This document shows, one piece after another, positions 5,998 to 63,240 of a stretch of 63,493 nucleotides of DNA. Positions within the stretch are counted from its first letter, which is position 1. The number at the start of each line of letters is the position of its first letter. Source of the stretch: Pelagibacteraceae bacterium AG-426-G09 (GTDB lineage: Bacteria; Pseudomonadota; Alphaproteobacteria; Pelagibacterales; Pelagibacteraceae). Under the pieces are notes generated by a model. That model was given only the letters and a program-made list of their open reading frames with translations. It was not told the DNA's origin and made no database searches. The stretch spans positions 1-63,493 of the forward strand of contig QCNR01000007.1 in assembly GCA_003210075.1 (NCBI GenBank), written 5' to 3'. Both the position numbers and the translations under genes were made by a program.

Positions 5998-6007
5998 GAA
6001 TAAAATA

Positions 6008-6035
6008 TTGAATCTATTAAAATTGGTTTTATATT
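6008..6035 (+). promoter_or_regulatory. Putative promoter of ssrA
   Basis: TTGAAT (6008-6013) and TATATT (6030-6035) are separated by 16 bp. Transcription would start near 6042, just before the hairpin sequence GTTGGTTTTCCAAC at the beginning of the tmRNA precursor. Seen by eye only. Confidence 0.45.
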
Positions 6036-6041
6036 ATTAAT

Positions 6042-6298
6042 GTTGGTTTTCCAACTATGACGATAAACGAATTTCGTAATAACCATTACGGACGTGGGGG
6101 CAGTACCCACCACCTCCACCATTTTCAACTTATGGGGGTGAATTAGGATCGACGGGTGTCTAAAAGTTATTCTTTCGTCAGGTATTGTTCCGCCTTAATG
6201 GGCTATTTTATAAATGCTAACGAAAGTTATGCACTTGCAGCTTAATTAATTTATTAATTAAGTTACGGGGTTTGGGGCACCTGGCAACAGAACGCCCC
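6042..6298 (+). ncRNA. ssrA: tmRNA, circularly permuted two-piece form
   Basis: Rescues stalled ribosomes by acting as tRNA-Ala and then as a short mRNA. The gene is permuted as in other Alphaproteobacteria. The acceptor piece comes first and ends CACCTCC-A-CCA at 6111-6121. After a short spacer (TTTTCAACTTAT) the coding piece begins GGGGGTG at 6134. These two ends pair over all seven acceptor-stem positions (G3-U wobble, otherwise Watson-Crick). The conserved GGATCGACGGGTG follows. The tag frame from 6216 is GCT AAC GAA AGT TAT GCA CTT GCA GCT TAA, giving ANESYALAA. The coding piece ends in the element CTGGCAACAGAA and the GC stem at 6274-6298. The 5' boundary of the acceptor piece is approximate. 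Confidence 0.93.
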
Positions 6299-6308
6299 TT
6301 TTTTTTTT
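6274..6308 (+). terminator. Rho-independent terminator of ssrA
   Basis: Stem GGGGC (6274-6278) and GCCCC (6294-6298) enclose the tmRNA element CACCTGGCAACAGAA region and are followed by ten T residues (6299-6308). The stem is probably also part of the folded coding piece, so termination and RNA structure share the same bases. Confidence 0.7.
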
Positions 6309-6327
6309 GAATTATATCAAAATTTTA

Positions 6328-6413
6328 TGGTGCGGTCAGAGAGACTCGAACTCTCATGGGCTAGGCCCACACGGCCCTCAACCGTGCCTGTCTACCAATT
6401 TCAGCATGACCGC
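6328..6413 (-). tRNA. tRNA-Leu(GAG)
   Basis: The reverse complement reads GCGGTCATGCTGAAATTGG... and ends TGACCGCACCA. The anticodon arm is CACGG-TTGAGGG-CCGTG, giving anticodon GAG (Leu, CUC/CUU). A long variable arm (GTGGGCCTAGCCCA region) is typical of class II tRNA-Leu. The T-arm has GTTCGAGTC and CCA is encoded. The gene is 86 nt and faces the ssrA terminator. Confidence 0.95.
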
Positions 6414-7465: not shown

Positions 7466-8293
7466 ATGCTTAAAATAAATCAAAAATATATAAACTCTGT
7501 AGTTAAAAAGGCTTTATCGGAAGATTTATATCCAAAAGGAGATTTAACAACGAATCTTTTACTATCTAAAAATAAGGTTATTAAAGCAAAAATTATTTCA
7601 AAACAAAATGGAATTATTTCTGGTTTAGATTTTTGTAAAACCGCGTTTAAATTAATTGATAAAGAAGTGATTTTTAATAAAAAAATTAATGACGGTAAAA
7701 AAGTAAAAAAAAATAAAGTTATTGCTGAAATAAAAGGAAAAACTAGAAATATTTTAATTGCAGAAAGAACTGCTTTAAATTTTCTTAATCATTCTTCAGG
7801 TATTTCAACACTAACAAACAAATTTGTTAAGAAAGTAGGAAAAAAAACTAAAATTTGTTGTACTAGAAAAACAACACCTAATCTTAGATTGCTTGAGAAA
7901 TATGCCGTCCAAAAAGGAGGTGGTTTTAATCATAGATTTAATTTAAGTGATGAAATATTAATTAAAGAAAACCATATAAATTCAGACAAGAGCCTAAAAA
8001 ATTTATTAACTAAAGCTATAAAAACAAAAAAAATCATTACAGTAGAAGTAGAGAACATAAACCAACTTAAACAAATTTTAGGATACAAATTTAAAAGAAT
8101 ACTTTTTGATAATATGAGTATAAAACTACTGCGAAAATGTTTAAAACTTTGCAAAAGTAGATATGAAACTGAGTATTCTGGAAATGCAAATTTGAAAAAT
8201 ATAAGTCAAATTTCTCAAACAGGTGTAAATAGAATTTCTGTTGGTTCTATAACACATAGTTCGCAAAGTTTTGACGCTACCCTATTAATTTAG
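7466..8293 (+). CDS. nadC: Nicotinate-nucleotide pyrophosphorylase NadC
   Basis: Converts quinolinate and PRPP to nicotinate mononucleotide, the step after NadA. Seen are ALSEDLYPKGDLTTNLLL at the N-terminus, the core motif AERTALNFLNHSSGIST, CCTRKTTPNLRLLEKYAVQKGGG, and ENHI with IKENH. The C-terminal repeat pattern (ILFDNMS, TGVNRISVGSITHS) is typical. I place the start at ATG 7466 (275 residues), 4 nt after nadA. An in-frame TTG at 7451 would overlap nadA by 11 bp but adds residues not expected in the family. The gene is convergent with ppdK. Confidence 0.95.
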   Translation: MLKINQKYINSVVKKALSEDLYPKGDLTTNLLLSKNKVIKAKIISKQNGIISGLDFCKTAFKLIDKEVIFNKKINDGKKVKKNKVIAEIKGKTRNILIAERTALNFLNHSSGISTLTNKFVKKVGKKTKICCTRKTTPNLRLLEKYAVQKGGGFNHRFNLSDEILIKENHINSDKSLKNLLTKAIKTKKIITVEVENINQLKQILGYKFKRILFDNMSIKLLRKCLKLCKSRYETEYSGNANLKNISQISQTGVNRISVGSITHSSQSFDATLLI

Positions 8294-49872: not shown

Positions 49873-51267
49873 TTATAAACTCTTTACAATTTCCTCTGTC
49901 ATTTTTTTGGCATCTGCAAATAACATTAATGTATTATCTCTATAAAATAAATCATTATCAATTCCCGCATAACCTGGTGATAAACTTCGTTTTACAAATA
50001 ATACTGATTTACTTTTCTCTACATCTAGCACTGGCATTCCATATATTGGACTTTGTGGATCTGATTTTGCGACAGGATTTGTCACATCATTTGCTCCAAT
50101 TACGTATGCTACATCGCAATTTGCAAAATCATTATTAATTTCCTCTAACTCAAAAACTTCATCGTAAGGAACATTTGCCTCAGCTAATAATACGTTCATA
50201 TGTCCAGGCATTCTTCCTGCAACTGGATGTATTGCATAAGATACCTTTACCCCATTTTTTTTTAAGGCATCTACCATTTCTCTTAATGCATGTTGTGCTT
50301 GAGCAACAGCCATACCATAACCCGGAACAATAATTACTGAAGATGCATTTTTCATAAGAAATGCTGCGTCATCAGCATTCCCATTTTTAACTGGTTTCTG
50401 TTCTTTATTTTGTGAAGTTGAAGTTTGATCAGTTGCACCCCAACCACCTAGAATTACGTTAAAGAACGATCTATTCATTCCTTTACACATTATATAAGAA
50501 AGTATTGCTCCTGATGATCCGACTAAAGCACCTGTAATAATTAAAGCTGTGTTTTCCAAAGTAAATCCAATTCCAGCGGCTGCCCAACCTGAATATGAAT
50601 TTAACATTGATATAACAACTGGCATATCTGCGCCTCCAATTGGAATTATTAACAAAACCCCTACTAGAAAAGATATTATTAATAATGTCCAAAATATATT
50701 TGCTGATTGACTTACACACAAATAATAAGTCAAAGATATAATTGTTAATCCTAAAATTAAATTTATGATATGCTGTCCTCTAAAAGTAATTGGCGATCCA
50801 GACATTATTCCTCTTAATTTTAAAAATGCGATTATTGAGCCTGAAAAAGTAATTGCTCCAATAGATGCACCGAGAGACATTTCTATTAAACTTGCAAGCT
50901 TTATGTTTCCTACTATTCCTAAATTAAATGCTTCTGGTTTTAAAAATGCAGATATCGCTACAAAAACTGCGGCAAGACCAACAAGACTATGAAAACCCGC
51001 AACAAGTTCTGGCATTGCTGTCATTGGGATTCTAAATGCTATAAATGCACCAATTGACCCACCAATAAGTAAGAAAATTAAAACATAGACAAATCCTGGC
51101 CCAAAATTTCCTACAGATAAAAAAGTTACTATAATAGAAATTGCCATACCAGCAATTCCAAAAAAATTTCCTTGTCGAGAAGTTTCTGGTGAGGATAGTC
51201 CTCTTAAAGCTAAAATAAATAAAATTCCTGAAATTAGATAAAATAGTGCTGATAAATTAGCTGACAT
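49873..51267 (-). CDS. pntB: NAD(P) transhydrogenase beta subunit
   Basis: Proton-translocating transhydrogenase subunit with the NADP(H)-binding domain III. The 464-residue protein has about nine membrane segments, then a soluble domain with VIIVPGYGMAVAQAQHALREM, VSYAIHPVAGRMPGHMNVLLAEA, DVAYVIGANDVTNP and MPVLDVEKS. Together with the two alpha parts it is a three-gene enzyme as in Rhodospirillum. Confidence 0.97.
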   Translation of the reverse strand: MSANLSALFYLISGILFILALRGLSSPETSRQGNFFGIAGMAISIIVTFLSVGNFGPGFVYVLIFLLIGGSIGAFIAFRIPMTAMPELVAGFHSLVGLAAVFVAISAFLKPEAFNLGIVGNIKLASLIEMSLGASIGAITFSGSIIAFLKLRGIMSGSPITFRGQHIINLILGLTIISLTYYLCVSQSANIFWTLLIISFLVGVLLIIPIGGADMPVVISMLNSYSGWAAAGIGFTLENTALIITGALVGSSGAILSYIMCKGMNRSFFNVILGGWGATDQTSTSQNKEQKPVKNGNADDAAFLMKNASSVIIVPGYGMAVAQAQHALREMVDALKKNGVKVSYAIHPVAGRMPGHMNVLLAEANVPYDEVFELEEINNDFANCDVAYVIGANDVTNPVAKSDPQSPIYGMPVLDVEKSKSVLFVKRSLSPGYAGIDNDLFYRDNTLMLFADAKKMTEEIVKSL

Positions 51268-51269
51268 GT

Positions 51270-51572
51270 TTATTTCTTCTTTTTCTTATACATTTGCAAC
51301 ATCCGTTGCGTAACAAGGAAGCCACCAAAAATATTTACTGCTGCTAAAATTATTGCAAGAAAACCAAATATATTCGAAGTTTCAAAAATATCTTCTGATA
51401 CGCCAGCCAAAGCTGCTATAATTGCCCCAACAATTATTACTGATGAAATTGCATTTGTTACTGACATCAGTGGCGTATGTAATGAAGGTGTAACGCTCCA
51501 TACAACATAATAACCAATAAAAATTGATAAAATAAATATACTTAATCTGAATATAAAAGGATCTATTTCCAT
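51270..51572 (-). CDS. NAD(P) transhydrogenase alpha-2 subunit (membrane part)
   Basis: 100 residues with three to four membrane helices (FILSIFIGYYVVWSVTPSLH; MSVTNAISSVIIVGAIIAAL; IFGFLAIILAAVNIFGGFLV) and the conserved LHTPLMSVTNAIS and FLVTQRML motifs of the PntA C-terminal domain. It overlaps the alpha-1 stop by 1 bp and is 2 bp from pntB. Confidence 0.95.
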   Translation of the reverse strand: MEIDPFIFRLSIFILSIFIGYYVVWSVTPSLHTPLMSVTNAISSVIIVGAIIAALAGVSEDIFETSNIFGFLAIILAAVNIFGGFLVTQRMLQMYKKKKK

Positions 51573-52660
51573 TATTTTAACTTCGTTTTTTCAATTATTT
51601 CGTCATCTAAATTTATTTCAAAGGTTTTTTTTTCTTTATCAAATAAATTGTTTATGAAATTAAACATATTTTTTGAATAAAGATTTGAAGCAGAGACTGG
51701 TAATTTGTTTAATATATTTTTTTCACCCATAATTTTTATACCTTTGTTATCTATAATCTGGTCAACTTTTGTCAATTCTGAATTTCCACCTTGTGATGCG
51801 GCTAAATCATATATGACAGATCCATTTTGCATAACATCAATCATATCTTTTTTTATTATTATCGGAGCCTTTTTGCCTGGAATTAATGCAGTACATATTA
51901 CAATGTCAATTTTTTTTAAAGTTTCTTTTAATAACTCTTCTTGCTTTAATTTAAAACTTTCAGATGCCTCTTTTGCGTATCCTCCTTCTGTCTCTAAATT
52001 CTCTGAACCTTCAACAATTAAAAATTTTCCTCCTAAACTCTCAACTTGTTCTTTTGAAGCCAGTCTTACATCTGTGGCGTAAACTATTGCCCCCATTCTT
52101 TTTGCGGTTGCAATCGCTTGTAAACCAGCAACTCCAGCTCCAACAATTAAAACTTTAGCTGCTGAAATAGTTCCAGCCGCAGTCATCATCATAGGTATAG
52201 CTTTTTGGAAATAAGCGAAAGAGTCTATTACCGCTTTATAGCCAGCTAAATTAGCTTGGGAAGATAAAATATCCATAGATTGAGCTCTTGTAATTCTTGG
52301 TAAAAGCTCTAATGAAAAACAATTAACTTTTTTTTCAATTATTTTTTTCAATCTTTCATCGTTTCTATAAGGATCTAAAACACCTATTAATATTTGATCC
52401 TTCTTAAGTTTTTTTAAATTTTCATCATTAGGAATATTCATTTGCAAAATTACATCTGAGCTCTGTATTACCTCTTCATCAGTTTTTAAAATTTTTACTC
52501 CTTCTGCCTCATATACTTTATCTAAAATTCCTAAATGAGATCCGTAATCTTTTGTTAAATATACATCTAAACCCAAAGATTTATATTTTTTTACAATTTC
52601 AGGTGTCACTGAAATTCTTTGTTCTGATTTTCTGTTTTCTAAAGTTGAGCCAACAATCAT
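51572..52660 (-). CDS. pntA: NAD(P) transhydrogenase alpha-1 subunit (NAD-binding)
   Basis: Soluble NAD(H)-binding domain I. The 362-residue protein has ENRKSEQRISVTPEIVKKY, GVLDPYR, LELLPRITRAQSMDILSSQANLAGYKAV, VLIVGAGVAGLQAIATAKRMG, and ICTALIPGKKAPI and YDLAASQGGNSE. It is separate from the membrane part, unlike E. coli PntA. Confidence 0.96.
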   Translation of the reverse strand: MIVGSTLENRKSEQRISVTPEIVKKYKSLGLDVYLTKDYGSHLGILDKVYEAEGVKILKTDEEVIQSSDVILQMNIPNDENLKKLKKDQILIGVLDPYRNDERLKKIIEKKVNCFSLELLPRITRAQSMDILSSQANLAGYKAVIDSFAYFQKAIPMMMTAAGTISAAKVLIVGAGVAGLQAIATAKRMGAIVYATDVRLASKEQVESLGGKFLIVEGSENLETEGGYAKEASESFKLKQEELLKETLKKIDIVICTALIPGKKAPIIIKKDMIDVMQNGSVIYDLAASQGGNSELTKVDQIIDNKGIKIMGEKNILNKLPVSASNLYSKNMFNFINNLFDKEKKTFEINLDDEIIEKTKLK

Positions 52661-52669
52661 TATATTAAA

Positions 52670-52780
52670 TTATAAAAGAAAAAGAGCAAGCAAAGCCAAA
52701 ATAAAGACAATTGCAACACTTCCCCAAAGTACAAACTTTGTAAAACCTTCCCAGGTTTTTTTATGATTTTCACTATTCAT
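52670..52780 (-). CDS. aa3-type cytochrome c oxidase subunit IV-like mini protein
   Basis: A 36-residue reading frame: MNSENHKKTWEGFTKF then a single membrane helix (VLWGSVAIVFILALLALFLL). The HxKTxEGFxKFxxWG pattern followed by one helix matches the bacterial COX4_pro_2 (aa3 oxidase subunit IV) family. The gene begins 1 bp after the rpmJ stop and ends 9 bp before pntA, so spacing supports a real gene. Confidence 0.83.
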   Translation of the reverse strand: MNSENHKKTWEGFTKFVLWGSVAIVFILALLALFLL

Positions 52781-52781
52781 C

Positions 52782-52907
52782 TTATTTTTGTCTAGCTTTA
52801 AATTTGGGATTTTTTTTATTGATTATATATACTCTTCCTCTTCTTCTTACCATTTTTGAATTAAGGTCTCTTTTTTTTAAAGATTTCAATGAACTAGCTA
52901 TTTTCAT
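52782..52907 (-). CDS. rpmJ: 50S ribosomal protein L36, zinc-free form
   Basis: A 41-residue frame: [40 protein letters not shown]. This is L36 of the cysteine-free (YkgO-like) type normal in alphaproteobacteria. It starts 4 bp after the epimerase stop and is followed at 1 bp by the COX4-like gene. Confidence 0.94.
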
Positions 52908-52911
52908 AAAT

Positions 52912-53799
52912 TTATTTTTTTTGAGATTTAATAAACGAATTTATATAATCTTTCAAATGTATTTTTCCAAATTTTTTGTATACTTTATTTGAAAAAGAAA
53001 TATTCGTTAGCGCAGAGGCGTATCTTTCTCCTTGTCGTTTAGGTAAATAAGATATTTTACACTTAAACATTCGAGCAACATCCAATATTGAGTAAATTTT
53101 TTTATTTGAAATTGAATAATGCCTTGATTTATTTTTTTTCCAAGCCTCAAAACATATGTTGATTGTGTCAGATATATGTGTGAATCTCCTTGTTTGATTT
53201 CCAGGTTTTACAACCGTTAAAGGGACTTTTTTTCTATATTGATTTTCAAAAATTCCAATTACAGTTGCCATATCGCCTGAGCAGATCTGTCTTGGCCCAT
53301 AAACATTATAAAAATATATGACATCATATTTGAAACCGAACCAAGTCTTAAAATTTTCTAAAAGTTCTAAATTTTTTGACTTTGTAAACGCGTAAGGTGA
53401 AAGATTTTTATCTGCACCTTCATTTCCGAGACTTGCTGAAGTTGCAGAATAAATTAATTTAATATTATTATCTAGACAAAACTTAAAAACTTCTTTGGTA
53501 CCTATAGTATTAGATTCATAGCATTGATTAAATTTTTCAAAACTTTGATATATTCTTGCAAATTCGCCGAAGTGAAATATCGAATTTATATTGTTTGTGT
53601 AATTTTTTAATATTTTTTTAATATTTTTTGTGTCGTTATTTAAATACTTAACTCTAGAACTTCTAATATGATTTTTTTTTGTTCCACTTGAATAATTATC
53701 CAAGCTTATTAATTTAAATTTAGTTTTTTTTATAAAATGCTCAATTAAATTGGAACCTACAAACCCGGCCCCTCCTGTTACTACAATTATTTTTTTCAT
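52912..53799 (-). CDS. NAD-dependent sugar-nucleotide epimerase/dehydratase
   Basis: Extended short-chain dehydrogenase acting on a nucleotide sugar, UDP-glucose 4-epimerase-like. The 295-residue protein has [49 protein letters not shown], the active-site pair in [10 protein letters not shown] (YxxxK), and [21 protein letters not shown]. The ATG is clear, and lies about 11 nt downstream of the 5S rRNA 3' end, with no room for a terminator. The exact substrate is unknown. Confidence 0.88.
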
Positions 53800-53810
53800 T
53801 GGGATATTTT

Positions 53811-53929
53811 AGCCTGGCAATGTCCTACTCTTCCATGTCTTAAGACAAAGTACCATCGGCGCAGAAAGGCTTGACTTCCGAGTTCGGAATGGGATCGGGT
53901 ATTACACTTTCGCAATAATTACCAGGCAA
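53811..53929 (-). rRNA. 5S rRNA (orphan in this window)
   Basis: The minus strand begins TTGCCTGGTAATTATTGCG and ends GACATTGCCAGGCT, closing helix I (GCCTGG with CCAGGC). It contains the conserved CCGATCCCATTCCGAACTCG and GCGCCGATGGTACT segments. No 16S, 23S or tRNA is next to it: the left neighbour is the epimerase gene and the right is the polysaccharide island. Ends are approximate by a few nt. Confidence 0.95.
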
Positions 53930-53933
53930 TGGT

Positions 53934-53961
53934 TTTATACATTAATTGAAAAAATTGTAAA
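53934..53961 (-). promoter_or_regulatory. Dedicated promoter of the orphan 5S rRNA
   Basis: Minus-strand TTTACA (53956-53961), 16-bp spacer, TATAAA (53934-53939). The start of transcription about 7 nt downstream falls on the 5' end of mature 5S. Directly upstream is a 9-bp A/T inverted repeat (AAACTTTAA-TTT-TTAAAGTTT, 53959-53979), which could serve as an UP-like element. Confidence 0.6.
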
Positions 53962-54062
53962 CTTTAATTTTTAAAGTTTTTAAAGATAATAGATTAATAA
54001 ATCATTAGTTTTTGTGTTTAATTAATATTGGAAATTTTATTATCAAGAATTCGTTGGTTAGT

Positions 54063-55328
54063 TTATTTTATAAAGTTCAAAAATAGAAATCCAACATAAA
54101 ATAAATTTAATATAAATATATTTTTAAATGAAAAATAATTTTTTTTAAAATCTAAATCGAAAATAGTTAGAAATAAAAAAATTAAAAGTGGGTCATAATA
54201 TTTATGGTAAATTGATAATTGTGGATTTGCCAGGATTAAAATTAAAATTAAAATTATATTATCAATTTTTCTTTTTTTTACTAAAGTTAAATAAACGACT
54301 GGCATTGCATAAAAACAAATTAAATAAAACAATATATTGTTTTGAAAAAGGAAATTTGAAGCCTTAAAAAAAATACCACCACCTGTAAATAATAATTCAT
54401 AATTAAAAAATATTATATTTAAAAATACAAAAGAAATTATAAATATTAATTCTTTTATATTTATATTTTTTAAATAAAATTTATCGCTGAAATTTTTAAT
54501 AAAGGGCAACAAATAAAAAAATATTAATGAACCGATTATTAAAATTTTATTTGAATAATTTAAGTTATTTTTTACTCCAAATGAATTTAGCTCATTGCCC
54601 GGAGTTAAGCCAGGATTAATAAAAAAAACTTCTAGAATAAACAAATAATAAAAGGCAGGAAAAGCTAAAATAAAGTTTATGATTAAGTAATTTAATATTT
54701 TTTTATTTTTTACAAGATCATTATAAAATTTAAATAAAAAGAAAATTCCAAATAAACAAAAATTAATACTAAAGTATGATGATATTGCTAAGAAAAATAC
54801 ATTTAAATAACAAAAAATAACTTTTTTATTCTCACTAAAATATTTTAAATAAAAATAAACACAAATTACAAAAAAGTGAAATCCTATTATTCTACTATCT
54901 GGCCAAACACTTAACGATCTATAGACTGGTGATAAGAAAAAAATAAGAGAAATAGCAAACAAATAATTTGAAGAAATATTTTTAAATTTTATTCTTAAAC
55001 ATTTATAAAAAAACAATATTGAAATAATTGAAAAATTAAAAAAAATAAATCTAATTATCCAATCACTTAATTCAATTTTATAAAGTAAAGACAATAAGAT
55101 TATAATTAACGGGGAATGTCTCTCTCCATATTTATCAAAATTTAAAAATGTTTGGTTAAAATCATTTAAAAAAAGCTCAATTAAATTCTTATAGCCTAAA
55201 AAATCCTGATAAGCCCCACCAGTAGAGTTTTCATTTATATAAAAAGCAGATAAAAATATTAAATAATAAGAGCTGAATAAAATGATTTTTGTTTTATTAT
55301 TTTGTTTATTTAAAAAAGAAATTGTCAT
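54063..55328 (-). CDS. Polytopic membrane protein of polysaccharide island, possible GT-C glycosyltransferase
   Basis: 421 residues with about ten or more membrane segments (for example IILFSSYYLIFLSAFYI; FIFFNFSIISILFFY; NYLFAISLIFFLSPVYRS). A loop after the first helix contains GGAYQDFLGYKNL, and a later KYGERHSPLIIILLSLL. This resembles GT-C-type lipid-sugar transferases in overall layout, but no catalytic motif is certain. It is oriented toward the 5S promoter region, and ends 101 bp from the -35 box. Confidence 0.6.
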   Translation of the reverse strand: MTISFLNKQNNKTKIILFSSYYLIFLSAFYINENSTGGAYQDFLGYKNLIELFLNDFNQTFLNFDKYGERHSPLIIILLSLLYKIELSDWIIRFIFFNFSIISILFFYKCLRIKFKNISSNYLFAISLIFFLSPVYRSLSVWPDSRIIGFHFFVICVYFYLKYFSENKKVIFCYLNVFFLAISSYFSINFCLFGIFFLFKFYNDLVKNKKILNYLIINFILAFPAFYYLFILEVFFINPGLTPGNELNSFGVKNNLNYSNKILIIGSLIFFYLLPFIKNFSDKFYLKNINIKELIFIISFVFLNIIFFNYELLFTGGGIFFKASNFLFQNNILFYLICFYAMPVVYLTLVKKRKIDNIILILILILANPQLSIYHKYYDPLLIFLFLTIFDLDFKKNYFSFKNIFILNLFYVGFLFLNFIK

Positions 55329-55388
55329 AATAACTTTTTATTTTATAGTACAAATTATATACATACTTATAAGTTTTACATAAATCAA

Positions 55389-56093
55389 ATGATCGAAAAA
55401 AATAATATTGAAATTTTAATACCAACTCTTAATGAAGAAGGTAATATTGAAGAAACAATAAGCAATCTCAAAGAAAGAGGATATAACAACATAACTATTA
55501 TTGATGACAATTCATCAGACAATACCGTAAAAATCTCTAGAGAAATGGGATGCAAGGTAATTGAAAACTTAACTCGAGTGAGATTAGGTTTTGGAAAATC
55601 TCTTATAAAAGCATTCGAATTATCATCATCGGATTATTGCTGTATTTTTGACGGTGATAATTCTTTCGATCCAGACTCTTTAAATATAATGAAAAATAAA
55701 ATTAATGAAAATTTTGATTTCGTATTTTGTTCAAGATATAAAGATAATAATACAAGTGAAGATGATACAGTTGTAAGAAAACTAGGAAACTATTTTTTTA
55801 CAAATTTTGTTAATATACTTTTTAAAATAAATACTACTGATGTCTTGTTTCTTTATGTAATCAGTAAAAGAGAAAATTTTCTTACTTTAAAACTAAACTC
55901 TCATGATTTCGGGATTTGTACGGAAATTCTTCTTAAATCATATCTTAATTTCAATTGTGCAGAAGTTTTATCTCTTGAAAGAAAAAGAAAATTTGGAAAA
56001 AGCAAGGTAAATGCAGTCTATGACGGATTTAAAATATTGATGAACATTCTCCATTATTATATTAAAAGTTTTTCAAATAAAAAATTGATTTAA
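55389..56093 (+). CDS. Family 2 glycosyltransferase (dolichyl-phosphate mannose synthase-like)
   Basis: 234 residues of GT-A fold with ILIPTLNEEGNIEETISNLK, ITIIDDNSSDNTV, and the nucleotide-sugar metal motif IFDGDNSFDPDSL. It then has FDFVFCSRYKDN and a C-terminal KRKFGKSKVNAVYDGFKI, as in DPM1-type enzymes. There is no membrane segment in the C-terminal region. It likely moves a sugar from a nucleotide donor to a lipid carrier. First gene of the plus-strand cassette to 61270. Confidence 0.9.
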   Translation: MIEKNNIEILIPTLNEEGNIEETISNLKERGYNNITIIDDNSSDNTVKISREMGCKVIENLTRVRLGFGKSLIKAFELSSSDYCCIFDGDNSFDPDSLNIMKNKINENFDFVFCSRYKDNNTSEDDTVVRKLGNYFFTNFVNILFKINTTDVLFLYVISKRENFLTLKLNSHDFGICTEILLKSYLNFNCAEVLSLERKRKFGKSKVNAVYDGFKILMNILHYYIKSFSNKKLI

Positions 56094-56095
56094 AA

Positions 56096-57118
56096 ATGAA
56101 AAAAATTGCTTTTATAACAGGTGTTACTGGTCAAGATGGTTCATATCTCGCGGAACTTTTGCTAAGCAAAAAATATATTGTACATGGTTTGTTAAGGAGA
56201 ACAAGTTTTTTAAATTTAGATAGAATTCAAGAGATTATCGATAGGTATGAATCAAAAGGTTTATTAAAACTTCACTATATAGATCTTACTGATACATCCA
56301 GCATAACAAATTTAATAATAAAATATAAACCACATGAGTTTTATAATTTAGCATCGATGAGTCATGTAGGAATTAGTTATTTTACAGGAGAGGCCACTCT
56401 AAACATAAATGCAATAGCAACTTATAGAATTTTAGAGTCTATACTTAAAAATCATAAAAAATGTAAATTTTATCAGGCATCATCAAGTGAAATGTTTGGT
56501 TCAACTCCACCACCACAAAATGAAAAAAGCCCCTTTAATCCACAAAGTCCATATGGAATATCAAAAGTAGCAGCATACTATACAACTAGATATTTTAGAC
56601 AAGCCCATGGATTATTTGCATCGAATGGAATTTTATTCAATCATGAATCACCAAGAAGAGGATTAAATTTTGTTACTAGAAAAATAACACATTCACTTGC
56701 TAGGATATTATCTGGTTATGAAAAAAAAATTTATCTTGGAGATATATCTACTAGAAGAGATTGGGGTCATTCTAAAGATTACGTGAGAGGAATATGGATG
56801 ATTTTACAACATAAAAGACCAGAAGATTTTGTATTATCAACAGGGAAGAATTATTCAATTGAAGACTTTGTAAAAAAAACTTTTAAAATACTTGGTTTAA
56901 ATTGGAAAAAATTTGTATCAACAAATAATAAAAACTTCTTAAGACCATCTGAAGTTAGAAACCTTCAAGGTAATAGCAATAAAGCAAGAAAATTATTAAA
57001 ATGGAAACCTATTTATAATTTAGATACTCTTTGTTTAGATATGCTTAAAAGTGATTTAAAACTTTATGGCATGACTTTAGAACAGGCTAAGGAAAAAGCA
57101 AAAAAAATATCAAAATAA
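56096..57118 (+). CDS. GDP-mannose 4,6-dehydratase-like protein, divergent paralogue
   Basis: 340 residues. NAD(P) motif [20 protein letters not shown], then LLRRTSF, DLTDTSSITNLI, FYNLASMSHVGISYFTGEATLNINAIA, SSSEMFGSTPP, catalytic YxxxK in [35 protein letters not shown] and RRDWGHSKDYVRGIW. It belongs to the Gmd family but departs from the canonical Gmd at 62203-63240 in the substrate regions (SYFTGEATLNINA in place of [13 protein letters not shown]). It may act on GDP-mannose or another GDP-hexose/heptose. Confidence 0.85.
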   Translation: MKKIAFITGVTGQDGSYLAELLLSKKYIVHGLLRRTSFLNLDRIQEIIDRYESKGLLKLHYIDLTDTSSITNLIIKYKPHEFYNLASMSHVGISYFTGEATLNINAIATYRILESILKNHKKCKFYQASSSEMFGSTPPPQNEKSPFNPQSPYGISKVAAYYTTRYFRQAHGLFASNGILFNHESPRRGLNFVTRKITHSLARILSGYEKKIYLGDISTRRDWGHSKDYVRGIWMILQHKRPEDFVLSTGKNYSIEDFVKKTFKILGLNWKKFVSTNNKNFLRPSEVRNLQGNSNKARKLLKWKPIYNLDTLCLDMLKSDLKLYGMTLEQAKEKAKKISK

Positions 57119-57123
57119 ATTAA

Positions 57124-58191
57124 GTGATATACCAAATTAAACCAGTTATTGGAAAATTAGCAAAAAAAAATATCATTAAATACATAAAGAATGATAATTG
57201 GATTACAGAGTTTAAACATACTTCTATTTTTGAAAAAAAGTTTTCAAAATTTACAAATTCAAAACATTGTATAGCTTTTCCCAATGGAACATTGACAATG
57301 TATGCTATTTTGAAATGTTTAAATTTAAGAAAAAATTCTGAAGTGTTAGTTTCTAATTATACAATGGTTGCAACTGCAAATGTTGTTAAAATGGCTGGTT
57401 TAAAGTTAAGATTGGTTGATATATCAGAATACGATTTATGTATGTCTCCAAAAGATTTATTAAAAAAAATATCAAAAAATACAAAAGTTGTAATTTATAC
57501 TCAGATGAATGGAAGGGTTGGTCAAATTAATGAAATTTCTAAGATATGCAAAAAAAGAAAAATCCATTTAATAGAGGATTCTGCCCATGCCATTGGTAGC
57601 TTTTACAAAAGAAAACATATTGGAAACTCTGGGATAGCAAGTTCCTTTTCATTTAGTATGCCAAAATTGATTACCATGGGACAAGGTGGTGCAATAATTA
57701 CAAATAATAAACTATTTGCTAAAAAATTAAGATTATTTAAAAATTTTGGAAGAAAGACAGATGGAATAGATGTGCATAATTATTTGGGATATAATTTTAA
57801 AATTACTGACTTGCAGTCAATATTGGCAACTTCGCAATTAAAAAATATTAAAGAGAGAATAAAATTGAAAAAAGAAATTTTTCAAAGATATTTGAATAAC
57901 CTGAAAGGAAATAAAAAAATAAAAATGATTCCAATGAAATCTTATGAAACACCTTGGTCTGTTGATATATATTTTAAAGGTACAAAAAAAGTCAAAAAAA
58001 TTTTGAAAAAGAATAATGTTTTAACAAGATACGTTTATCCACCATTAAACAGTCAAAAAATATATAAAAATTTTAAAGGTCTTCCTGTATCAAATGAATA
58101 TTGTAAAAATGGATTATGGCTTCCTTCAAGTCTTGATATTAAAGCTAAAGATATAGACAGAATTTGCTCAATATTAAATAAATACATCTAG
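57124..58191 (+). CDS. DegT/DnrJ/EryC1 family sugar aminotransferase
   Basis: PLP enzyme that aminates a keto-sugar nucleotide. The 355-residue protein starts at GTG 57124 and has FPNGTLTMYAILKCL, VLVSNYTMVATANVV, YTQMNGRVGQI, LIEDSAHAIGS (Asp152, His155) and the PLP lysine Lys181 in SFSMPKLITMGQGGA. With a Gmd-type dehydratase just upstream it could make a perosamine-like 4-amino sugar, although family members also act as dehydrases. Confidence 0.9.
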   Translation: MIYQIKPVIGKLAKKNIIKYIKNDNWITEFKHTSIFEKKFSKFTNSKHCIAFPNGTLTMYAILKCLNLRKNSEVLVSNYTMVATANVVKMAGLKLRLVDISEYDLCMSPKDLLKKISKNTKVVIYTQMNGRVGQINEISKICKKRKIHLIEDSAHAIGSFYKRKHIGNSGIASSFSFSMPKLITMGQGGAIITNNKLFAKKLRLFKNFGRKTDGIDVHNYLGYNFKITDLQSILATSQLKNIKERIKLKKEIFQRYLNNLKGNKKIKMIPMKSYETPWSVDIYFKGTKKVKKILKKNNVLTRYVYPPLNSQKIYKNFKGLPVSNEYCKNGLWLPSSLDIKAKDIDRICSILNKYI

Positions 58192-58203
58192 AAAATAAAA
58201 AAA

Positions 58204-59409
58204 ATGAAAATACGTAAAAAATGTTTATCTTGTAAGAATTTAAACTTAAAAGAAATTATAAATTTAGGCTCACATTCATTTGCAGATAGGTTTATTGAAA
58301 AAAAAAATTTCCATAAAAAAGATCCAACTTATCCATTAATAATAGATTTTTGTATTAAATGTAATTTTATACAATCTAGAGTTATAACAAATCCTAAAGA
58401 TAGATATTCAAATATTGATTATTCTTATACTGCATCAAATTCAAAATATTCTAAAAATCACTGGAGGGATTATGCAAATACTTTGGATAAGAAATTCAAT
58501 TTAAAAAATAAAAAAATTTTAGAAATTGGTTCTAATGATGGTTATTTATGCAAATTATTTAAAAAAAAAGGTGCAATAGCAATTGGTGTTGATGCATCAA
58601 AAGTTATGACCAAACTTTCCAGAAAAAATAATATTAAATCTATAAATTCAATATTTAATAATAAAGAAAGTAAAAAAATTAAAAAAAAACTTGGATTATT
58701 TGATTTTGTTATCGCGAATAATGTTTTTAATCATGCGGATGATCCATCAAATTTTTTAAAAGGAGTATTTAATATACTAAAAAAAAATGGCTTATATATA
58801 TTTGAGCAGCCAGATTTTGCCATAGGTGCTGTATCTTTAAAATTTGATCAAATCTATCATGAACATGTATCCTATTTTACATCTAAGAATATTAAATCAA
58901 TTCTAAATCATAATAATTTTACTTTAATTGAGATGAGCAGAAATAAATATCATGGTGGTAGCTTAAGATCAGTTGCATCAAAAAGTAATTCTAGTATATG
59001 GAAAACTAATTTCAATTTAAATAAATTTAAAAATTATAATAAAATTTATAAGGTAAAATTTTATTTAAGTATGATGCGAAAAATAAATAATAAAAAATTT
59101 TTATTTTTAAAAAAATTAAATAATCTTATTCTCAAAGGTTACACAATATGCGGTATAGGGGCCGCTGCTAAATCTAACACTTTTTTAACATTTTATGGTC
59201 TTAATAATAAAATTCTTCAATTTATCACAGATGCATCAAAATATAAAAAAAATAAATTTACGCCATATACCAGGATCCCTATTAAAGACGATTTAGAAAT
59301 TAAAAAATATAAAAAAATTGCTTGTATAATTTTATCTTGGAATATAAGTAATTTAGTAATTAACAAGATCAAAAAAATGAATAAAAAAATTAAAATTTTA
59401 TACACCTAA
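58204..59409 (+). CDS. Sugar C-methyltransferase, class I SAM-dependent
   Basis: 401 residues in three parts. An N-terminal zinc site has Cys7, Cys10, Cys50 and Cys53 (CLSC, CIKC). The SAM domain has ILEIGSNDGYLCKLFKKKGA and GVDAS. A C-terminal domain has HEHVSYFTSKNIKSIL, KYHGGSLRSVAS and CGIGAAAKSNTFLTFYGL. The layout is that of TylCIII/NovU-type enzymes that methylate carbon of keto-deoxysugar nucleotides, so a branched sugar is predicted. N- rather than C-methylation is not excluded. Confidence 0.87.
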   Translation: MKIRKKCLSCKNLNLKEIINLGSHSFADRFIEKKNFHKKDPTYPLIIDFCIKCNFIQSRVITNPKDRYSNIDYSYTASNSKYSKNHWRDYANTLDKKFNLKNKKILEIGSNDGYLCKLFKKKGAIAIGVDASKVMTKLSRKNNIKSINSIFNNKESKKIKKKLGLFDFVIANNVFNHADDPSNFLKGVFNILKKNGLYIFEQPDFAIGAVSLKFDQIYHEHVSYFTSKNIKSILNHNNFTLIEMSRNKYHGGSLRSVASKSNSSIWKTNFNLNKFKNYNKIYKVKFYLSMMRKINNKKFLFLKKLNNLILKGYTICGIGAAAKSNTFLTFYGLNNKILQFITDASKYKKNKFTPYTRIPIKDDLEIKKYKKIACIILSWNISNLVINKIKKMNKKIKILYT

Positions 59410-59413
59410 AATT

Positions 59414-59800
59414 ATGAAATATAGAAAATTAAAAATTAGCTTTCAGGATAAGCGTGGGACAATTAAAGATATTTTTTATAAAAATAATATACAACATGTG
59501 GCTATAATTAAGTCAAAGCCTAATACAAGAAGAGGAGATCATTATCATAAAAAGACTACACAGTGGATGTATATTACTAAAGGATCTTTAGAATACTGGT
59601 ATAAACCATTAAAATCAAAAAAAAGACCAAAAATGAAATTACTAAAAATTGGAGATTTAGTTGAAACACCTCCCAATGAAATGCATGCTCTTAAAATTGG
59701 TAAAGATGGAAATGAATTTATTGTATTTACAATTGGCAAAAGAGGAGGGAAAGATTATGAGGGAGATACTTACCGATTTAAACCTACACTAATTAAGTAA
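59414..59800 (+). CDS. Cupin-fold protein 1, possible sugar isomerase/epimerase
   Basis: 128 residues with a cupin core: KRGTIKDIF, RRGDHYHKKTTQWMYITKGSLEYWY, KIGDLVETPPNEMHAL and EFIVFTIGKRGGKDYEGDTYR. HYHKK plus the EMH motif give typical metal or sugar-binding positions. Similar to FdtA/WxcM and RmlC-like proteins that isomerise or epimerise keto-sugar nucleotides. Substrate unknown; lies 4 bp after the methyltransferase gene. Confidence 0.8.
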   Translation: MKYRKLKISFQDKRGTIKDIFYKNNIQHVAIIKSKPNTRRGDHYHKKTTQWMYITKGSLEYWYKPLKSKKRPKMKLLKIGDLVETPPNEMHALKIGKDGNEFIVFTIGKRGGKDYEGDTYRFKPTLIK

Positions 59801-59803
59801 TTA

Positions 59804-60220
59804 ATGCATAAAATATTTTCAAAAATTAAAAAAAAAAAATTAATTCATGTGTTTTATAAATCAAAGACAAATTTAGACAGAATTAATTTATCACCTAATA
59901 ATGAGTTTTTGCAAGCATCTATAATAAAATTTAAAGATAAAAAAATAATTAAATCTCATCATCATTTAAAGCATAGTATAATTAAATCAAAAAGACCTAT
60001 TCAAGAGTCATGGATTTTGTTAAGAGGAGCAGCTAAGTTAACATATTTTGATATCAATAATACAAAACTTAAAACATTTTTAATGAAATCGGGTGATATA
60101 TCAATAACATTCCAGGGAGGTCACGAGTTACAAATTTTAAAAAAAAATAGTATATTATGTGAGTACAAAACTGGACCTTACAATGGTACTTCAAAAGATT
60201 TAAAGTATTTTAAAAAATAA
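59804..60220 (+). CDS. Cupin-fold protein 2, companion of the preceding gene
   Basis: 138 residues with KIIKSHHHLKHSI, ESWILLRGAAKLTYFDINN, KSGDISITFQGGHELQIL and CEYKTGPYNGTSKDLKYF. It has the cupin HHH...H layout and the C-terminal EYKTGPYxG pattern found in other polysaccharide-locus cupins. It follows cupin 1 by 3 bp; the two differ greatly in sequence, so they are not a recent duplication. Function unknown. Confidence 0.7.
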   Translation: MHKIFSKIKKKKLIHVFYKSKTNLDRINLSPNNEFLQASIIKFKDKKIIKSHHHLKHSIIKSKRPIQESWILLRGAAKLTYFDINNTKLKTFLMKSGDISITFQGGHELQILKKNSILCEYKTGPYNGTSKDLKYFKK

Positions 60221-60223
60221 ATA

Positions 60224-61270
60224 ATGATACTGCCCTTAGAAACCTTTAGAGGAATTTTTGCTCTAATAATTGTCTTACATCATTTAAAAATTGATACGTT
60301 TGTTCAAAAATCGAATTTAATTATAAATGGTGGCTTAGTTGTTGATTTTTTTTTTGTTCTAAGTGGGTTTGTAATAAGTTTAAACTATATTGAAAAAATT
60401 AATTCAAAAATAGATCTAATTAATTTTCAAAAGAAAAGATTTTTAAGGCTTTATCCCCTACATCTATTAACACTACTAGTTTTTATACTCATTGAAATAA
60501 TAAAAATAATAGTCGAAAATTATACAAATTTACAAACAACATATGCGCCATTTACAGGTTTTAATAATTTTTATTCTTTGATTGCTAATATTTTTCTTTT
60601 ACATGGATGGTACGGGTGGTCTTTTAATTTACCAAGTTGGTCAATATCAACAGAGTTTTATACATATTTTATTTTTGCTTTAGTGGTATTAAATACAAGA
60701 TATAAACTTTCTATATTCATTTTATTAATTTTATTATCTTTATTGTTATTTTATCTAAACAATATTGGTTTTGCAAATCTTGATAACTTTATTTATCCAA
60801 CCAGATGTATATATAGTTTTTTTCTTGGCTCATTAGTTTATTTAATTTATGAAAAATTTAAAAAAAATATCTCTCAATTTTATTCATTGATAATGATAAT
60901 CCTATGTATTTTATTAATATATTTTAGTGATTATTTAATTTTAAATAATAAATATATTTTTGCTCCGCTATTATTTGGTTTAACAATTTTGTTCATTTCT
61001 TGCCTAAAAAATAATTCAATTTTATATAGAATATTATCTAATAGATATACAGTATACCTTGGTACAATAAGTTATGGCGTATATATGATACATTTTGGAT
61101 TAGTATGGTTTTTCAGACAGTTTTGCAGATTTGTTCTAAATATTCCAGAAAATGATAATTATTTAGTATTTAATAGTTATATTGGTGAAATTTTTACTAT
61201 TATTTTTGTATTATTAGTAATCTATTTATCTCACTTATCATTTAAATATTTTGAAAATAAATTTAAATAA
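60224..61270 (+). CDS. Acyltransferase family 3 membrane protein
   Basis: O-acyltransferase, probably acetylating surface sugars. The 348-residue protein has about ten membrane helices and motifs LETFRGIFALIIVLHHL, VVDFFFVLSGFVISLNY, FLRLYPLHLL, NLPSWSISTEFYTYFIFA and YLGTISYGVYMIHFGLVWFF, all seen in AT3 proteins. It has no SGNH domain. Last plus-strand gene of the cassette and convergent with fcl with no gap. Confidence 0.92.
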   Translation: MILPLETFRGIFALIIVLHHLKIDTFVQKSNLIINGGLVVDFFFVLSGFVISLNYIEKINSKIDLINFQKKRFLRLYPLHLLTLLVFILIEIIKIIVENYTNLQTTYAPFTGFNNFYSLIANIFLLHGWYGWSFNLPSWSISTEFYTYFIFALVVLNTRYKLSIFILLILLSLLLFYLNNIGFANLDNFIYPTRCIYSFFLGSLVYLIYEKFKKNISQFYSLIMIILCILLIYFSDYLILNNKYIFAPLLFGLTILFISCLKNNSILYRILSNRYTVYLGTISYGVYMIHFGLVWFFRQFCRFVLNIPENDNYLVFNSYIGEIFTIIFVLLVIYLSHLSFKYFENKFK

Positions 61271-62206
61271 TTATTTTTTACTTTTTAAAAAGTTATTATA
61301 AGTATTCTCAAATGCATCGTCAAAATCATATTTTGGCTTCCAGCCATATTTTTTTGCTAAACTTATATCTAAAAGTTTTTTTGGCATACCGTCTGGTTTT
61401 GATTTATCATATTTAATTTTTAAATTTACATTCATTTTTCTCATTAAAAATTTTGCATACCAAATAATTGGATAATCTTTGCCGATACCAATATTAATAA
61501 ATGGCTCTTTTATCCTTTTATTCATAAAAAAAATTAAAGCATCTGCAAAATCATCCACGTACATAAGCTCTCTTCTCGCTTTTCCTGATCCCCATACTTC
61601 AAAATATTTTTTATTACGGACTTTGGCATTATAAATTTTTTTTAGAAGAGCAGGATAAAAATGAGAACTTTTCAAATTATAATTATCATTTGGTCCATAC
61701 AAATTAGGGGGCATTAAACCTTTGTAGCTAATTTTGTGAATTTTACTGTAATACTCACACATTTTTAAACCAGCGATTTTAGCAATAGCATATGCATCAT
61801 TTGTTTCTTCAAGTAATCCTGTGAGTAATTGATTTTCTTTCATTGGTTGTTTGCTAAGTCTAGGATAAATGCAGCTTGAACCTAAAAGAAATAAATTTTT
61901 TACTCCTGCCTTAAAGGATCCATGAATTAAATTGTTTTGGATTTGTAAATTTTCATAAATAAATCTATCCTTATATTTCTGATTTGCATAAATACCACCT
62001 ACTCTAGCAGCTGCTATAATTACTAAATCAGGTTTTATTTTTTTTAGAAAATTAAAAGTTTCTCTTTGTTTAATAAGGTCTAATTTTTTTTTTTTTGTTA
62101 CAATGATATTTGTATAATTATTTTGTAGTAGTTTTTTATAGATTGCTGAGCCGACCATACCTCTATGACCTGCTAAATAAATCTTGCTTCCCTTAGATAA
62201 TTTCAT
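61271..62206 (-). CDS. fcl: GDP-L-fucose synthase
   Basis: Epimerase/reductase that turns GDP-4-keto-6-deoxymannose into GDP-L-fucose with NADPH. The 311-residue protein has [41 protein letters not shown], the YxxxK in [29 protein letters not shown] and [19 protein letters not shown]. It overlaps gmd by 4 bp and works directly after it. Confidence 0.96.
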
Positions 62207-63240
62207 TTGAGATAATCTAGCTCTTTTTCTATCATCTCATCAACTAATTGATTAAGATTAGTCTTAGGGTTCCACTTTAGTTTTGACCTTGCTTTTTTTG
62301 ATTCTCCAAGAAGTGTGTTTACTTCTAATGGCCTATAATATGCCTTATCACATGCTATTATAACATTTTGGTTAATATCTTTTGCCACTTCTTTAATTCC
62401 TTTTCCATGCCAAGAAAGTTTAATTTTTAATTTTTTTGCTACCATATTAATAAAGTTTTTTACACTAGTCTGTTTTCCGGTAGCTATAACATAATCATCA
62501 GGTTTTTTTTGTTGCATCATTAGCCACATAGCTTCTACATAATCTCTAGCATGACCCCAGTCTCTTCTTGAATATAAATTTCCTAAATATAATTTTTTTT
62601 GTTTTTTTAATTTTATTTTGCACATTGCTTGAACTATTTTTTGGGTAACAAATGTTTCTCCTCTTCTTGGGCTTTCATGATTAAACAAAATACCATTGCA
62701 AGCAAAAATATCATACGCTTCTCTATAATTAATTGTTATCCAGTGCGCATATAGTTTTGCTACACCATATGGACTCGCTGGATGAAATGGTGTCATTTCA
62801 TTTTGAGGAATTTTTTCATTCTTTCCATAAAGTTCAGAAGTGCCTGCTTGGTAAAATTTAGTTTTTTTTTCTAATTTATTAAACCTTATTGCTTCAAGAA
62901 TTCTTAAAGATCCCAGGCCATCAGCATTAGCTGTATACTCTGGCGAGTCAAAGGAAACTTGTACATGAGATTGAGCTGCTAGATTATAAACTTCATCAGG
63001 TTTGATTTGATTAATCAGTCTGGTCACTGACAAAGAATCAGTTATGTCCCCATAATGCAAAATAAAACTTCTTTTTTTAATATGGGGATCTTGATAAATA
63101 TGATCAATTCTATAAGTATTTCTTGAAGAGGATCTTCTTTTAACCCCGTGTACAATATATTTTTTTTTTAATAAAAATTCAGATAAGTAAGATCCATCTT
63201 GTCCTGTTATTCCAAAAATTAATGCTACTTTTTTTTTCAT
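62203..63240 (-). CDS. gmd: GDP-mannose 4,6-dehydratase
   Basis: First step from GDP-mannose to GDP-L-fucose. The 345-residue protein has [126 protein letters not shown] and [15 protein letters not shown], all canonical for Gmd. Paired with fcl downstream. Confidence 0.97.

Follow-up and report, generated by a model that had tools for sequence, protein, structure and literature searches.

In Pelagibacteraceae, the single 5S rRNA gene, in the assembly of Pelagibacteraceae bacterium AG-426-G09 as in its relatives, probably leads a transcription unit of its own, with a sigma-70-type promoter at its 5' end, read-through into the next gene, and cleavage at its 3' end. The promoter would be composed of TTTACA, a gap of 16-17 nt, and TATAAA, together with UP-like AT-rich stretches, and RNA polymerase would start at the mature 5S 5' end or within 1-2 nt of it. 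Because initiation would occur at the mature 5' end, no 5' cut from a 23S-5S precursor would be needed. Transcription would then continue into the next gene, usually rpmJ (ribosomal protein L36), or, in other species and in the DNA studied here, through a sugar epimerase, rpmJ, and pntA. The 3' end of the 5S would most likely be produced by cleavage, e.g. by RNase E, in a short AU-rich spacer, which would also release an mRNA whose leader is very short. The position and conservation of the promoter, the missing 23S linkage and precursor stem, the gene order, and the RNase E gene are direct observations.

The 5S locus and its putative promoter

The window, i.e. the whole stretch of DNA analysed (63,493 nt), is the entire contig C7 of a 1.16 Mb assembly in 38 contigs, which is 87% complete. 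The sole 5S gene of this assembly is on the minus strand (53812-53926, 89.8 bits to Rfam RF00001), and the anchor and the end of the terminal stem place its first base at 53927. An rRNA search of all 63,493 nt found neither 16S nor 23S, and the 16S gene of the genome lies on a different contig (C10:7832-9306); the preliminary description of a 5S without 16S or 23S neighbours in the window is thus borne out. The stretch of C10 in which 23S would be expected, 5000 bases ending at base 7500, consists of N, so that 23S is not readable there. The idea of a genome without 23S was dropped for this reason, and the missing 23S matches in several relatives possibly have the same cause. Elsewhere in the window, a tmRNA of the permuted two-piece alphaproteobacterial type was seen on the plus strand (6004-6413); at its end, as given by ARAGORN, it shares a few bases with a tRNA-Leu that runs convergently.

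The features of the locus, in window positions, are as follows.

53812..53927, minus strand: 5S rRNA gene (Rfam RF00001, 89.8 bits, with anchor/terminal-stem end)
53927 and 53812, minus strand: 5S terminal-stem pair, G 53927 (predicted +1 and first stem base) with C 53812, from the stem end
53956..53961, minus strand: -35 element TTTACA, by position; family-conserved at -34 to -29
53934..53939, minus strand: -10 element TATAAA, 6 nt ahead of +1
53967..53982, minus strand: UP-like AT-rich stretches (-40 to -55), of low family-wide GC; putative function
53800..53811, minus strand: AU-rich 12-nt spacer from the 5S 3' end to the next start codon; candidate 3' processing site
52912..53799, minus strand: NAD-dependent sugar epimerase/dehydratase, 295 aa, between 5S and rpmJ (ORF; PF01370, E 2e-28)
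52782..52907, minus strand: rpmJ (ribosomal protein L36), 41 aa, 4 nt past the epimerase (ORF; PF00444, E 5e-16)
52670..52780, minus strand: COX4_pro_2 small protein, 36 aa, 1 nt past rpmJ (ORF; PF07835, E 8e-10)
51572..52660, minus strand: pntA, transhydrogenase alpha subunit (PF05222/PF01262)
51270-51572 and 49873-51267, minus strand: two further same-strand ORFs after pntA
54063..63240, strand not assigned: edge of a polysaccharide island (HVR2-type), upstream of the 5S promoter and running to the contig end (ORFs and Pfam)

Read along the minus strand, TTTACA (53961-53956) is followed by a 16-nt spacer, TATAAA (53939-53934), 6 nt, and G 53927. The geometry given in the preliminary description, with TTTACA-16-TATAAA placed for a start at the mature 5' end, therefore stands, with two corrections: the 5S gene is on the minus strand, and +1 is predicted at 53927 instead of 53934, which is the end of the -10 element. 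When sequences were simulated with matching dinucleotide composition, roughly 1 in 10,000 had exact TTTACA and TATAAA at such a geometry. The site was absent from the output of a generic sigma-70 scan, which accepts only -10 elements ending in T; this is not counter-evidence.

Conservation was scored as mismatches out of 12 to TTKACA/TATAAW at the expected geometry, three or fewer counting as a good promoter, for 122 Pelagibacteraceae 5S loci (120 non-redundant) and 20 loci from a second family of the same order. Among the 120 loci, 77 had 0-1 mismatches and 116 had three or fewer, the other four scoring poorly (4-6 mismatches). Across 105 control anchors upstream in the same loci, three or fewer mismatches were reached in a mean of 11% and at most 19%, and in the second family, whose 5S is linked to 23S, all 20 loci had 5-8 mismatches (good promoter in 0/20). 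Promoter-like matches in the AT-rich region are as common as in shuffles, as would be expected if the hexamers were a chance match in AT-rich DNA; the position-specific conservation over 120 loci, set against the controls and the linked family, refutes a chance origin, which retains next to no probability.

Of the Pelagibacteraceae loci, 94-97% carry the T pair at -34/-33, and all readable ones have G at +1. Pairwise identity is 32-36% in the upstream flanks (-120 to -35), about random for AT-rich DNA, and 64% in the -35 block. The 120 loci come from relatives and hence are not independent; their unalignable flanks show that they diverged long ago. Family-wide GC falls to 4.6% at -43 to -40 and 13% at -55 to -52 against a background of 25%, and from their position these two stretches resemble both halves of an UP element. 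The features of a sigma-70-type promoter are thus present: -35 and -10 hexamers, a spacer of 15-18 nt, and a purine at +1. Overall, comparative sequence analysis argues strongly for a 5S promoter conserved across the family. The use of the promoter, the exact start site, the shared transcript, and the cleavage are predictions, with the mature 5S ends taken from the stem.

In a DNA search with the promoter and the 5S start, the matches listed from named genomes included only Pelagibacteraceae/Pelagibacterales records, and the DNA was assigned to SAR11 on this basis. The 5S promoter differs in sequence from that of 16S: 26 genus members, including the present genome, have CTTGATTT...TATAAGC as a conserved element ~200 nt ahead of their 16S gene. 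The predicted 5S start is the first base of the 5S gene. A 5S stem shortened by 1 nt (GCCGG) might have shown whether the promoter position follows the start of the gene; it was set aside as uninformative since an internal deletion preserves the geometry regardless.

Separation of the 5S gene from 23S

No 23S match was found upstream of 5S in any of the 120 Pelagibacteraceae loci, for which up to ~1-1.5 kb of upstream DNA was available (<900 nt for 7 of them). In the second family, the 23S 3' end is ~90 nt before 5S in 20/20 loci, and the 5S flanks pair with a mean of -15.6 kcal/mol (-6.4 when shuffled). The same test for a precursor stem in the Pelagibacteraceae 5S flanks gave -3.2 kcal/mol, with -3.7 for shuffled sequences, i.e. 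the stem is absent. In other families of the class, 23S is found just upstream of 5S in 27 of 29 loci. Of the remaining two, L194 has no 23S match, and L214 shows an unusual order in which a 23S match starts ~330 nt downstream of 5S, with none upstream and a tRNA-like stretch in between (genome G388). Linked 23S and 5S with a precursor is the common state; therefore, as judged from these sequences, the Pelagibacteraceae arrangement looks derived. This fits with the single rRNA operons reported for subclades IV and V (PMC7318151) and for HIMB59 (PMC3815206).

Where a single contig carries both genes, 23S lies upstream of 5S on a common strand at a distance of 21-62 kb in seven Pelagibacteraceae genomes, and in four further genomes 16S and 5S share a strand at 44-49 kb. 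Polysaccharide genes are located between 23S and 5S in relatives. In the window, the right flank was likewise proposed to be a sugar island, and polysaccharide genes do fill 54063-63240: the Pfam content includes a glycosyltransferase, a DegT aminotransferase, a C-methyltransferase, and an acyltransferase, and dehydratase-like ORFs were recognised by eye. The split of the rRNA operon by an island, as previously suggested, is supported by these 11 genomes. That SAR11 HVR2 separates 5S from 16S-23S, also mentioned in the preliminary description, has been published since 2007 (PMC2217521, PMC3815206, PMC7318151) and is established SAR11 biology rather than a new result.

Given the collinear order of 16S-23S, island, and 5S in most genomes, the 5S could in principle be cut mainly from a very long transcript that starts at 16S-23S or island promoters and passes through the island, with the local promoter being minor. 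This appears very improbable: the distance is 21-62 kb, the island beside the 5S carries plus-strand ORFs (55389-61270), opposite to the 5S strand, the precursor stem is gone in Pelagibacteraceae, and the promoter is conserved to the nucleotide. A non-collinear genome (G051, locus L043) also has an intact 5S unit. Here, ~440 kb separate 5S from a 23S match, the two being on different strands, and the promoter and rpmJ are retained; the 23S matches of this genome are fragments. In an Arctic isolate, the 23S-5S distance is ~880 kb, which was reported as a translocation of 5S (PMC12421898). Therefore, from the arrangements in these two genomes, the 5S unit seems to be autonomous.

The assembly, with 38 contigs, 87% completeness, and an unreadable 23S region, leaves room for a normal 16S-23S-5S operon elsewhere, in which case the 5S at 53812-53927 would be an assembly artefact or a silent spare copy. 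Of the 108 family genomes with a match, only two deviate from exactly one 5S, and single-contig genomes also have just one; the split had already been published for isolates (PMC2217521). Such a spare copy is hardly credible.

Genes behind the 5S gene

An ATG lies 6-38 nt past the 5S end in 117/120 Pelagibacteraceae loci, a tight downstream gene being missing in the other three. The next gene is rpmJ in 77 loci (median gap 13 nt) and a sugar epimerase in 40 (median gap 9.5 nt), and rpmJ follows the epimerase in 18/18 epimerase genomes examined. The order in the window is 5S, 12 nt, epimerase, 4 nt, rpmJ, 1 nt, COX4_pro_2 protein, and then pntA. No terminator-like hairpin was found on the minus strand between 49100 and 54100 of the window, the only region scanned, and in the other Pelagibacteraceae loci the gaps from 5S to the next gene are too short for a terminator. 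Thus, 5S and rpmJ share a strand with short gaps throughout the family, with no terminator detected in the window, as expected of a shared unit. A private rpmJ promoter is hard to fit because rpmJ begins a few nucleotides after a constrained RNA gene, and co-transcription of 5S and rpmJ would be the simplest reading of the gene order. The 5S seems to be part of a mixed rRNA/mRNA unit and not to stand alone.

Since the next gene begins 12 nt on, the 5S requires 3' processing or an undetected terminator. The preliminary description had 5S supply relying on its own promoter instead of processing; for the 5' end this is supported by the family-wide conservation and the lost precursor stem, and the 3' end must be treated separately. 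An RNase E gene was found in 14/14 genomes searched, and RNase E is a plausible candidate for the 3' processing enzyme. Alternatively, the promoter is real and a terminator of a factor-dependent or unusual kind ends its transcript at the 5S 3' end, with rpmJ and the epimerase being transcribed in some other way. The 5S is required in far larger amounts than the L36 mRNA, which would agree with termination at this point, and rho-dependent stops carry no distinct sequence mark, so that factor-dependent termination after 5S would be invisible to a sequence scan. This explanation is nevertheless rather unlikely, as the median of 13 nt to rpmJ leaves no space for a promoter of its own, the spacing is tight in 117/120 loci, and the window scan found no terminator-like hairpin. 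Under read-through, the excess of 5S over L36 mRNA makes it necessary to postulate cleavage, attenuation, or fast mRNA decay.

The slot between 5S and rpmJ holds several kinds of sugar genes, among them two epimerase types; therefore, the island extends past 5S up to rpmJ. In one genome (G069, locus L238, C4:25860-28500), three sugar genes are stacked after 5S (GDP-mannose dehydratase-like, epimerase-like, and epimerase), with no rpmJ within the stretch read. In another (G188, locus L237), ~870 nt without a nearby same-strand ORF start follow the 5S before rpmJ, and G220 resembles it directly after 5S. Farther downstream, relatives of the COX4_pro_2 (PF07835) protein are present in the rpmJ-pntA gap of most genomes checked. 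The 'pntA motif', a candidate RNA, was placed in this gap in HTCC1062 (PMC2704228). Because the COX4_pro_2 ORF occupies the same gap, the conservation of the motif may be partly coding.

Island position and relation to known systems

In the second-family loci inspected, polysaccharide genes predominate directly after 5S. The content of the island is known from one genome (G148), in which 40 ORFs extend over ~50 kb behind 5S and include epimerases/dehydratases (7), UDP-glucose dehydrogenases (3), glycosyltransferases (3), a nucleotidyltransferase, and a dTDP-sugar isomerase; ~5 kb of other genes follow, then rpmJ, and pntA 2 kb on. In seven genomes of this family with 5S and rpmJ on one contig, both genes share a strand and rpmJ follows 5S at a distance of 54-78 kb, with pntA ~2 kb past rpmJ. 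Since the island lies between the rRNA genes and rpmJ-pntA in both families, the 5S is on opposite sides of it: before the island in the second family and behind it in Pelagibacteraceae. The earlier wording of an operon split by an island holds for the split and hides the island of the second family on the other side of 5S.

Either the 5S moved or an island was inserted at two places beside it. One possible scheme, put forward tentatively and somewhat short of an even chance, is that the 5S crossed a shared island slot to the rpmJ side and came to lead a mixed operon which sugar genes repeatedly entered. The 5S would have left its place behind 23S, which is kept in the second family; initiation would then set its 5' end, and 3' cleavage would finish the 5S and release the L36 mRNA. 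Surface-sugar genes inserted repeatedly between 5S and rpmJ would thereby come under an rRNA promoter. In second-family loci L358-L370, rpmJ comes after a small basic ORF that itself lies behind a tRNA, and a TATAAA-like box is present; pntA is ~2 kb farther on. An origin of the 5S promoter in an ancestral promoter of rpmJ was considered, and this evidence was too weak to support it.

The published HVR2 descriptions likewise show a sole 5S parted from the other rRNA genes by a polysaccharide island and, in the portions of text available, concern its position alone, making no mention of a promoter, a loss of the precursor stem, or a 5S-rpmJ unit (PMC2217521, PMC3815206, PMC7318151). Meyer et al. 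in 2009 placed rpmJ before pntA in HTCC1062, with 5S or rmlB often annotated beside the pntA motif in metagenomic DNA, and described no promoter or shared transcript, whereas here the order 5S-(epimerase)-rpmJ-pntA is family-wide (PMC2704228). Unlinked bacterial rRNA genes, with 16S apart from 23S-5S, are found in Borrelia (PMC3037291) and in a survey (PMC7761764). These bacteria also have separate rRNA transcription units, yet their 5S stays with 23S, while in SAR11 the 5S is the separated gene. The 5S RNA itself is like that of the canonical 16S-23S-5S operon; the Pelagibacteraceae gene differs in being unlinked to 23S, in lacking a precursor stem, and in having a putative promoter of its own at the gene start. 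Eukaryotes and some archaea have unlinked 5S genes with their own promoter and a start at or near the 5' end. Here, by comparison, the promoter would be of the bacterial sigma-70 type, and the 5S runs straight into protein-coding genes. No report of a SAR11 5S promoter or of 5S-rpmJ co-transcription was found in the open literature searched, which does not prove that none exists. Beyond the preliminary description, the 5S seems not to stand alone, and it is on opposite island sides in the two families.

SAR11 are among the most abundant cells of the ocean, with one rRNA set each. A promoter of its own would uncouple the 5S from 16S-23S and so pose the question of how the three rRNAs are kept in matching amounts. 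If true, the placement of 5S directly ahead of rpmJ would make for an uncommon rRNA/mRNA unit, and transcription of surface-polysaccharide genes from the 5S promoter would link cell-surface variation to ribosome synthesis.
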